Origin: an uncultured Alphaproteobacteria bacterium
GTDB taxonomy: Bacteria > Pseudomonadota > Alphaproteobacteria > Rs-D84
Direction: 5' to 3'
Assembly (NCBI GenBank): GCA_944390125.1
Contig: CALXOX010000001.1
Location: 270,990-334,989 of the forward strand
Length of the DNA stretch: 64,000 nt
Shown here: positions 54,843 to 57,317 of the stretch, piece by piece
Position numbering within the stretch: the stretch's first letter is position 1
How the letters are laid out: each line of letters opens with the position of its first letter
Notes under the pieces: generated by a model
What the model was told of the DNA's origin: nothing
Databases searched by the model: none
Seen by the model: only the letters and a program-made list of their open reading frames with translations
Translations under genes and position numbers: made by a program

Positions 54843-55523
54843 ATGAAACGTTCAATTTTATTTTGGGTTTATTTTGTTGTAGCCATTGTTATGGCTGTGT
54901 ACCTTGCAACAAGAGTTATAATGGTATGCACGGGGCGTAGCAATTTGTCTTATGTCAGAAGCATGAGTTTATCTGCAGACATACCAAACAAAGATTTAAG
55001 CCCAATTGCAACTGCAGCAGCGGTTGCACCTGGCACACGTGCATACGGCAAAACATTGGATGAAATAAACGCCAGAATAATGGCAACCCCTGGTGTCCGC
55101 AAGGCAGCAACACGCCGTTTACCATCTGGTAATTTATCAATTCGTGTTCAATTATATCAAGCGGTTGCTCAATGGACAGATGGGACATCTTATTACCCAC
55201 TATCTGCAGACGGCACAATTGTGAACAAACCAACAGATACAAGGAATCCGAATACTGTTGTTTTTCGTGGCGAGGTTCCAAATGACATATCAGAAATTAC
55301 AAACACGGCACATAATTTAGTTGGCGATTTGGATTATCTGGAATTTATTGAAAACCGCAGATGGAACCTGCATACGACTGGTGGAATAACAATAATGTTG
55401 CCAGAAAAAAATCCTGAGAATGCGGTTGCAAGTCTTATAACGTTGAACAAGAATCATCAAATTCTGTCCAAGGATATAAAGCTGATAGATATGCGTGATA
55501 GTTCACGAATATTAGTAAAATAA
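54843..55523 (+). CDS. ftsQ: cell division protein FtsQ
   Basis: A 226-residue bitopic divisome protein. A short cytoplasmic start and helix (about 4-27) are followed by a POTRA-like domain (GKTLDEINARIMATPGVRKAATRRLPSGNLSIRV, QLYQAVAQW, YYPLSADGTIV) and the FtsQ beta domain ending IDMRDSSRILVK. It is shorter than many alphaproteobacterial FtsQ but complete. It directly precedes ftsA-rpe by 12 bases, the usual ftsQ-ftsA order. Confidence 0.88.
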   Translation: MKRSILFWVYFVVAIVMAVYLATRVIMVCTGRSNLSYVRSMSLSADIPNKDLSPIATAAAVAPGTRAYGKTLDEINARIMATPGVRKAATRRLPSGNLSIRVQLYQAVAQWTDGTSYYPLSADGTIVNKPTDTRNPNTVVFRGEVPNDISEITNTAHNLVGDLDYLEFIENRRWNLHTTGGITIMLPEKNPENAVASLITLNKNHQILSKDIKLIDMRDSSRILVK

Positions 55524-55535
55524 AAGTCATAAAAA

Positions 55536-57317
55536 ATGAATTTATCAGACTCAAGTTTTTTATGTCTTGATATAGGCACAAGCGGTGTTCGTGGTATTGC
55601 ACATCGTGTTCGTTCTGGCCACTTAGCAAAATCTGCTATGTATTCAGTTGACAGTTTTGATACAGTATTTGCACTAAAATCAGTTATTGATGAATTAGAG
55701 CATCAAATTGGCGATCATTTTGAAGATGCATATATCACAGGAAATTTTGGTTCCGCCGTTTTTAAGATAAGTCCTAAGACAAAAAAATGGCGCAGCGAAC
55801 ATAAATTTACTCAATCTGATGTCGCATCAATGATAGGTCAAATAACCCCACCAGAAGGTTATTTTCCCATACATATAGTTCCATTGAGATATGAAACCCC
55901 AAACATGTCAAAATTGTATTCTCCTGTTGGGTACATAGACAATGCTTTGACAGCAATATTTGGTGCAATATACTACTCATCGGAATCCATGTCGGACTTG
56001 ACATCAACGCTGCATGCTGCGCACATTCAACCATATTCTTTTTATGATCCCCAATATTTACAAAATGCTGTGCATCATAAAAAGAGACGTGCAGAAATGT
56101 ACATTGATTTTGGAGCCGAATTTACCAGCGTTTCGATATGGTTAGACAATGGTCCAATATTCTTCCAAAAGTTACACTTTGGTGGTACAGATATAACAAA
56201 TGATATTGCTGAAAAATTAAACATAAATTTTGAAGATGCAGAACGTATAAAAAGAAATGTCGGCGGTTTAATGCCAAAAGAAATGGACAGATTTACCCCA
56301 GCAGACACAGCATATGATTTTTCACGTGCCGACGTAAATAATATAATAGTTCCAAATATAATTGATATATGCCAACAAATAAAATCTGTATGTGCGGCCC
56401 CTTTTAAACATACCACCCCAAACGTGATAATAATTTCTGGTGGCGGTGCAGAAATGGATTCTATGGCAGATTTTATAGAAAACGTATTCGGCATTCCTGT
56501 TGAAAATATGTCACGTGCGGCATCTGTACAGGCATTATCATCATACATCTGGAACCTAGAATCTTCTCATCGAGAAGCATACGCAGCACGTACAACAAGG
56601 ATAAAAAATGCTTACGATAAAATGACATCAATCTTTAAGCGCAAGCCAAAACAAAAAGTTCGTTTTATTCCTATCATGCCAAGCACGTTGTGTTTTGACA
56701 TGAAAAGTTCAGAAACATATTCATTATTCCGTTCTGGCGGAATATCAATGATTCACGTTGATATAATGGACGGTCTGTATGTTGAAAATATTCGTGGCAG
56801 CATATCAGAATTAAAATATATCCGTGCACACACAATGGCGCACTTGCATGTACATTTAATGACGGAAAGTCCCGACGTGTGGGCGGCCGATGCTATACGT
56901 GCAGGAGCAAATACAATCGTAGTATCAACAAACACATCTGGTGTCCGTGCTGCAATAAAATCGATAAAAGCTGCCGGCCGCCGTGCTGGTGTTGCACTAA
57001 ATCCGGAATCGTCTGTTGAAATATTAAAACCGATACTTCGCGAAATAGACGAAGTTATGATTATGACTGTTACCCCCGGTGCAGCAGGACAAGAATTTGA
57101 TGAAAGTTGTTTAAAAAAGATAAGCGTGCTTGCCGCCACACGTAAAAAATACGGATTAAAATATCTTATTTCTGTAGATGGTGGAATAAATTCAGAAACC
57201 GCACAAAAATGTTGGGATGCTGGTGCTGATTTACTTGTCAGTGGTTCATACCTTGCAAAGAGTAATGATTTTCCTTTAGCAGTACAAAGTTTATTAAAAC
57301 AAAAATCAGAAAAATAA
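55536..57317 (+). CDS. ftsA-rpe: FtsA fused to ribulose-phosphate 3-epimerase
   Basis: One 593-residue frame. Residues 1-369 are FtsA, the actin-like FtsZ membrane tether: phosphate-1 LDIGTSGVRG (11-20), the 1C region (YFPIHIVPLRYETP...SPVG), phosphate-2 YIDFGAEFTSVSIW (189-202) and the adenosine motif IIISGGGAEMDSM (298-310). Residues 353-371 (RIKNAYDKMTSIFKRK) look like the amphipathic membrane helix that normally ends FtsA. It then enters a TIM barrel (about 375-590) of the Rpe family with Ser383, metal ligands His407, Asp409, His440 and Asp548, methionines Met411 and Met442, PGAAGQ and VSGS. The HVE segment of common Rpe reads STN (464-466). ftsZ does not follow; a terminator does. Confidence 0.93.
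   Translation: MNLSDSSFLCLDIGTSGVRGIAHRVRSGHLAKSAMYSVDSFDTVFALKSVIDELEHQIGDHFEDAYITGNFGSAVFKISPKTKKWRSEHKFTQSDVASMIGQITPPEGYFPIHIVPLRYETPNMSKLYSPVGYIDNALTAIFGAIYYSSESMSDLTSTLHAAHIQPYSFYDPQYLQNAVHHKKRRAEMYIDFGAEFTSVSIWLDNGPIFFQKLHFGGTDITNDIAEKLNINFEDAERIKRNVGGLMPKEMDRFTPADTAYDFSRADVNNIIVPNIIDICQQIKSVCAAPFKHTTPNVIIISGGGAEMDSMADFIENVFGIPVENMSRAASVQALSSYIWNLESSHREAYAARTTRIKNAYDKMTSIFKRKPKQKVRFIPIMPSTLCFDMKSSETYSLFRSGGISMIHVDIMDGLYVENIRGSISELKYIRAHTMAHLHVHLMTESPDVWAADAIRAGANTIVVSTNTSGVRAAIKSIKAAGRRAGVALNPESSVEILKPILREIDEVMIMTVTPGAAGQEFDESCLKKISVLAATRKKYGLKYLISVDGGINSETAQKCWDAGADLLVSGSYLAKSNDFPLAVQSLLKQKSEK

Follow-up and report, generated by a model that had tools for sequence, protein, structure and literature searches.

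A genus-wide fusion of FtsA to ribulose-phosphate 3-epimerase in Candidatus Enterousia, a lineage that has lost FtsZ

Throughout the genus Candidatus Enterousia, the actin-like division protein FtsA is joined in a single reading frame to a ribulose-phosphate 3-epimerase (Rpe), and the same genus has lost ftsZ. FtsZ is used for division by nearly all bacteria, and FtsA is normally understood as its membrane anchor. The loss of FtsZ, FtsA itself and Rpe are each already known; what is new, judged against the open-access literature, is that FtsA is kept without FtsZ and is fused to an enzyme. In that literature we found no report of either condition, no paper joining FtsA, Rpe and a fusion, and none treating the order Rs-D84 together with FtsZ. 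Our overall reading, which we judge to be as apt to be right as wrong, is that a single, genus-defining fusion yielded an FtsA-Rpe protein that would organise septal wall synthesis without FtsZ, with its Rpe domain both catalysing and clustering.

In the window (the whole stretch of 64,000 nucleotides that was analysed), the ftsA-rpe fusion gene occupies positions 55536..57317 of the forward strand, the strand of every window feature given below, and comprises 593 codons and one stop, as established by ORF reading, Pfam, AlphaFold2 and Foldseek. A sequence-only reading of this DNA had described the two-domain frame, and its coordinates, length, domain order and residue numbers proved exact. 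In the fusion protein, the Pfam family FtsA (PF14450) matches residues 189-326 with 57.5 bits against a cut-off of 31.8, and Ribul_P_3_epim (PF00834) matches residues 382-573 with 156.6 bits against a cut-off of 21.1. The structure prediction that this reading had called for (AlphaFold2, 80-sequence alignment; pLDDT 90.9, pTM 0.61) returned a complete FtsA fold and a complete Rpe barrel; in the modelled order, one FtsA fold (residues 1-340) comes first, then a helix of 25 residues (343-367), a short, basic and disordered segment (369-374) and finally one TIM barrel. The FtsA actin-like domain (55536..56555) is recognised by PF14450, by its invariant columns and by Foldseek, which aligned it over about 370 columns with the FtsA crystal structures 3wt0, 1e4g, 7q6i, 4a2a and 7q6d; it includes the subdomain 1C region (about residues 74-148; 55755..55979), which stands in place of actin 1B and in which the model matches full-length FtsA structures. 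The Rpe TIM-barrel domain (residues 377-589; 56664..57302) is recognised by PF00834 and by Foldseek, the nearest comparison being Rpe 2fli with a target TM-score of 0.91 and an rmsd of 1.4 A.

The fusion is a permanent trait of the whole genus. Candidatus Enterousia has been placed in the order Rs-D84 and has reduced genomes (PMC12306168); the genome to which the window belongs consists of 897,036 bases in 8 contigs and is 99.17% complete. The full-length fusion is present in 23 of 24 genus genomes, with 47-79% identity, the exception being a genome that is 70% complete, and it was not found in any of the 16 other genomes of the order. It lies on 80 named contigs, among them the complete 1,001,484-base chromosome OX097180.1 (Ca. 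E. intestinigallinarum); related contigs are named either Candidatus Enterousia or uncultured Alphaproteobacteria and come from animal guts. On a wider scale, PF00834 matches in 146 of 156 genus genomes (102 of the 103 of good quality), and the frames listed, leaving aside a handful of additional stand-alone copies, measure about 590-633 aa. In a search of 385 genomes across the class, where any other full-length fusion would be expected at the top of the ranking, the only end-to-end matches among those listed were the four Enterousia, against about 380 alphaproteobacterial genomes from outside the genus. Wherever the locus is readable, the architecture search proposed by the sequence-only reading recovered the same two-domain frame throughout the genus. 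An artefact, whether from chimeric assembly or from overlooking a stop that separates two genes, has next to no probability and was rejected: the frame is the same at 104 readable loci of the genus, from many separate studies, and on one complete chromosome, with no sign of the stop or frameshift between the halves that had been named as possible counter-evidence.

The surroundings of the gene bear on its ancestry. In the window, ftsQ (54843..55523; PF03799 FtsQ_DivIB_C, 38.7 bits) belongs to the same operon and ends 12 bases before the fusion, and it lies immediately upstream in all 78 Enterousia loci where this could be tested, at a median gap of 4 nt; in 18 of them it overlaps the fusion gene by 4 nt. 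Sister families of the order share this gene content and arrangement in one ftsQ-ftsA-rpe operon, with overlaps or near-overlaps between the genes; unlike in Enterousia, however, ftsA and rpe are separate there and FtsZ is present. The ftsA/rpe junction is a single shared base in G025 and G028, a 4-base overlap in G031 and a gap of about 16 bases in G024, and in family f4 an ABC-transporter-like gene lies between the two. The start of the stand-alone Rpe of G024 (MFKKRKQKI...) resembles the fused linker SIFKRKPKQKV. The sequence-only reading had regarded unfused close relatives, with rpe next to ftsA, as an argument against the fusion; such relatives are absent from the genus, where the fusion is universal wherever readable, but they do exist in the sister families, and since the two genes are unfused neighbours there, the objection resolves as ancestry. 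The simplest reading of these sequences is a single in-frame fusion of neighbouring ftsA and rpe at the base of the genus. Purifying selection acts on both halves, the median dN/dS of close pairs being 0.065 for FtsA, 0.168 for helix plus linker and 0.051 for Rpe; mean column identity is 67% in FtsA and 80% in Rpe and is lowest, at 46%, in the linker. Release of a free Rpe from an internal start was rejected, as the 80 sequences have no conserved alternative start at the junction upstream of the barrel: M381 is Met in 46 of the 80, and the first invariant Met, M389, already lies within the barrel.

Fusion and FtsZ loss coincide at one taxonomic boundary. The FtsZ model TIGR00065 finds a match in 0 of 24 Enterousia genomes as against 16 of 16 other genomes of the order (14 above the cut-off; G029 with 283 bits, G027 with 31 bits). 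The tubulin/FtsZ family PF00091, which matched in 13 of 14 control genomes, has no match in any of the 156 genus genomes, 103 of them of good quality; among these negatives is G041, a complete chromosome in a single contig of 1,001,484 bases, rated 99% complete. A profile built from the FtsZ sequences of the order, among them the highly divergent copy of G027, matched in 0 of 147 genus genomes in a search that had no positive control. As all three models are without a match, a hidden, highly diverged FtsZ in the genus was rejected; so was a diverged copy in the syntenic position, because the phage-like cluster whose portal gene adjoins ftsZ in family f4 exists in Enterousia without ftsZ. The gene has thus been lost from Ca. 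Enterousia. The sequence-only reading had supposed that the epimerase would be carried on the division ring; in a genus without FtsZ there is no Z-ring, and this cannot hold as stated.

The septal synthases have been retained despite the loss of FtsZ. The window's genome keeps FtsW (best model TIGR02614), adjoining MurG, and an FtsI-like PBP with a weak FtsL match (30 bits) adjacent, as well as RodA, PBP2, PBP1a and MreC; MreB has been reported for the order (PMC12306168).

The FtsA half shares with the FtsA of E. coli, T. maritima and S. aureus (7q6d, 4a2a and 3wt0) the actin-like fold including 1C, the nucleotide-site residues (D12, G14, D191, G302 and G303, invariant in 80 sequences) and an operon with ftsQ; a predicted amphipathic helix, terminal in those model species, would be a further likeness. 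Unlike them, it has this helix in an internal position, a C-terminal Rpe domain and no FtsZ partner, so that the customary role of binding or anchoring FtsZ falls away in this genus. Moreover, a loop of about 13 residues is missing from its subdomain 1A, and its score with TIGR01174, the NCBIfam ftsA equivalog, is 73.4 bits, below the cut-off of 175.85; the fused protein may therefore not behave like model FtsA. Pfam SHS2_FTSA has no match in the fusion protein, though it is detected in the sister families. By its sequence, this half is best classed as a divergent FtsA and not filed as an equivalog. An identity as PilM was rejected on the lower Pfam PilM and MreB scores, on the nearest solved structures, which are FtsA, and on the neighbouring ftsQ. 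An arginine of the 2B helix, which we take to be a conserved FtsZ-binding residue of FtsA, is lost in Enterousia; it is lost likewise in FtsZ-bearing f4 species, and its loss is hence uninformative on FtsZ binding.

In the sister families the C-terminus of FtsA forms a short amphipathic helix. Its predicted counterpart in the fusion (residues 343-367; 56562..56636), the putative equivalent of the C-terminal membrane-targeting helix of FtsA and now internal, was recognised from the model and the hydrophobic moment; it has a hydrophobic face, keeps the pattern [RK][IW]xNxxxK[IL]xx[ILV]F and is followed by a basic tail. A basic flexible linker (residues 368-376; 56637..56663) was recognised from the model and its charge. 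The median net charge of residues 355-376 is +9. The hydrophobic moment computed from column means has its maximum at 100 degrees (p 0.06 by shuffling), which is suggestive of an amphipathic membrane helix. The claim that the putative FtsA anchor has become internal stands, but the segment that had been singled out (353-371) is part of no transmembrane helix; it belongs to a predicted amphipathic helix with a strongly basic tail.

The Rpe half resembles the Rpe of S. pyogenes (2fli) in its TIM barrel, with 37% identity, and in its metal ligands, pocket methionines and phosphate-loop residues. As the sequence-only reading had maintained, the barrel keeps its metal ligands: H407 and D409 of the HVD motif (56754..56762), H440 (56853..56855) and D548, which adjoins the phosphate-loop residues G549-G550 (57177..57185), are invariant in 104 of 104 loci, and M411, M442, M508, M510, G515, G518, G549, G550, G570 and S571 are identical in the 13 of 13 genomes compared singly. 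Unlike 2fli, the fused Rpe lies behind a putative membrane helix and carries SxN in place of the strand-4 HxE. The altered segment S464-T465-N466 (56925..56933), already noticed in the window and placed by alignment with stand-alone and solved Rpe, is conserved genus-wide (S464 in 102, T465 in 100 and N466 in 99 of 104 loci); HxE is the motif of the order's stand-alone Rpe and of the five solved Rpe/AlsE aligned. Given this genus-wide replacement, catalysis is not assured. The fused domain scores 181.2 bits with NF004076 (PRK05581.1-4), above the cut-off of 165, and 159.6 bits with the Rpe equivalog TIGR01163, below the cut-off of 212.6.

A search for a second rpe in the window's genome, as had been proposed, gave none: the fused barrel is the only PF00834 match. 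A stand-alone Rpe of about 217-229 aa occurs in seven genomes (G113, G125, G135, G137, G142, G167 and G169), all of which keep the fusion. This second Rpe-like gene belongs to a sugar cluster (L155-L159, L165, L168), alongside a nucleotidyltransferase/kinase protein and a HAD-like gene; the cluster perhaps serves surface sugars. Replacement of the fused copy by the second was rejected, the latter being confined to seven genomes and to the surface-sugar cluster while the fused copy is intact. Transketolase is short in most genus genomes, about 597 aa with the middle of the profile missing; one such copy, a profile match, is at L169:3120-4901 (G000:C1:21134-22873) on the reverse strand. Because most genomes have a transketolase, there is normally a pathway in which the fused Rpe can act, and it is predicted to be the sole epimerase of most species. 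Four genomes at least 91% complete (G012, G013, G057 and G133, the last 100% complete) have no transketolase match; the metal ligands are all intact in these four and in the genomes with a second Rpe.

We propose that the overlapping or adjacent ftsA and rpe of an ftsQ-ftsA-rpe operon became one frame, once, in the lineage that also lost ftsZ. The product would be a membrane-bound, nucleotide-binding FtsA that organises FtsQ and probably FtsL, FtsI and FtsW without FtsZ; its internal amphipathic helix would still hold it on the membrane and leave the barrel in the cytoplasm, where, in most species, the Rpe domain would carry out the Rpe reaction for the cell. Multivalency is normally given by FtsZ filaments. 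Rpe enzymes form dimers or hexamers (PMC9978339), and the fused Rpe thus probably clusters FtsA; by this analogy, the oligomer would tie FtsA molecules together and lend them some FtsZ-like multivalency. Membrane binding, assembly, a division role independent of FtsZ, clustering driven by Rpe and epimerase activity are what we infer for the protein. That this amounts to an actin-based divisome in a walled genus, in which FtsA, clustered on the membrane by the oligomer of its fused Rpe, takes over from FtsZ the organisation of FtsWI-driven septation, we advance tentatively, as a proposal with somewhat less to be said for it than against it. We know of no cultured Enterousia.

The main rival holds that the fusion is neutral: translationally coupled neighbours were joined in frame in a shrinking genome, FtsA does its divisome job with an ordinary epimerase tethered to it, and the halves are functionally unlinked. 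Such an origin would be easy to picture, for even in the unfused state of the sister families ftsA and rpe can share 1-4 bases, the genome is below 1 Mb, purifying selection acts on each half separately, and conservation is lowest in the linker. We nevertheless consider it unlikely, though a serious contender: the link is unbroken in every genome read, even where there is a second Rpe or where a good genome lacks the transketolase match, and fusion and FtsZ loss have one taxonomic boundary in common.

A functional link of another kind would be a metabolic gate, in which the Rpe domain acts as a sensor of ribulose/xylulose 5-phosphate that switches FtsA polymerisation according to its ligand state, so that pentose supply is coupled to septation. 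The ligand-binding site is conserved even without transketolase, and without HxE the domain might bind its ligand but not turn it over fully. In E. coli, deletion of rpe gives small, slow-growing cells, and in pentose-phosphate mutants the frequency of Z-rings is uncoupled from growth rate (PMC5825171); moonlighting enzymes that act on division, such as OpgH, are known (PMC3723540). The model, however, with its flexible linker and pTM of 0.61, gives no sign of an allosteric interface, and an only Rpe beside a transketolase, as in most genomes, fits plain catalysis; we regard the gate as improbable. Slightly less probable still, in our estimation, is a reading in which FtsA does no more than anchor the epimerase to the membrane or act as its scaffold while MreB runs division as in Chlamydia. 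It would account for a diverged FtsA with no FtsZ to bind, and RodA, PBP2 and MreC are kept, with MreB reported for the order; chlamydial MreB can direct division without FtsZ (PMC7029139). But an anchor would hardly explain the invariant nucleotide-site residues, the ftsQ-ftsA operon intact at every testable locus and the retention of FtsW and FtsI.

Other lineages have lost ftsZ and kept peptidoglycan synthases, as Enterousia has. Chlamydia is the best studied FtsZ-less group with peptidoglycan, and Planctomycetes divide without FtsZ by budding or otherwise, whereas in Enterousia FtsA is fused to an enzyme. Chlamydia is without ftsA too (PMC10591338) and uses MreB, whereas Enterousia keeps FtsA, FtsQ, FtsW and FtsI. 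A genus with FtsA and septal synthases but without FtsZ makes directly testable the long-standing question whether FtsA alone can organise septal wall synthesis, and what must replace the multivalency of FtsZ. If FtsA-Rpe does form an actin-based divisome of the kind proposed, a metabolic enzyme has become a structural part of the division machine; the fusion would also be a rare case of a central-metabolism enzyme covalently built into a division protein.

A T7-like phage capsid cluster (portal, major head protein, tail proteins and internal virion protein) occurs in 37 of 40 order genomes, including Enterousia, usually once per genome and with the large terminase split in two genes (L176:9786-19000, G000 contig C3; L177-L179, L184; relatives L127, L129, L133, L141, L144, L181 and L182). 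Its appearance is that of a domesticated, gene-transfer-agent-like element. The sole ftsZ of several sister families adjoins the portal gene, inside or beside this cluster (L127:4632-6425, L129:5764-7347, L133:6384-8096, L144:6033-8036, L141:4519-5745); the Enterousia cluster without ftsZ is a hint of how ftsZ could have been lost. The last of these loci is the extremely diverged FtsZ of G027 (family f5), a genome whose FtsA is shortened and has no terminal amphipathic helix (L140:3209-4315); this state is possibly an intermediate stage of FtsZ decay. A ParA/MipZ-like ATPase (VIVVGNEKGGSGKST) also adjoins the ftsZ/phage cluster in sister families (L129:1428-2243, L133:11598-12461, L144:10139-10984).
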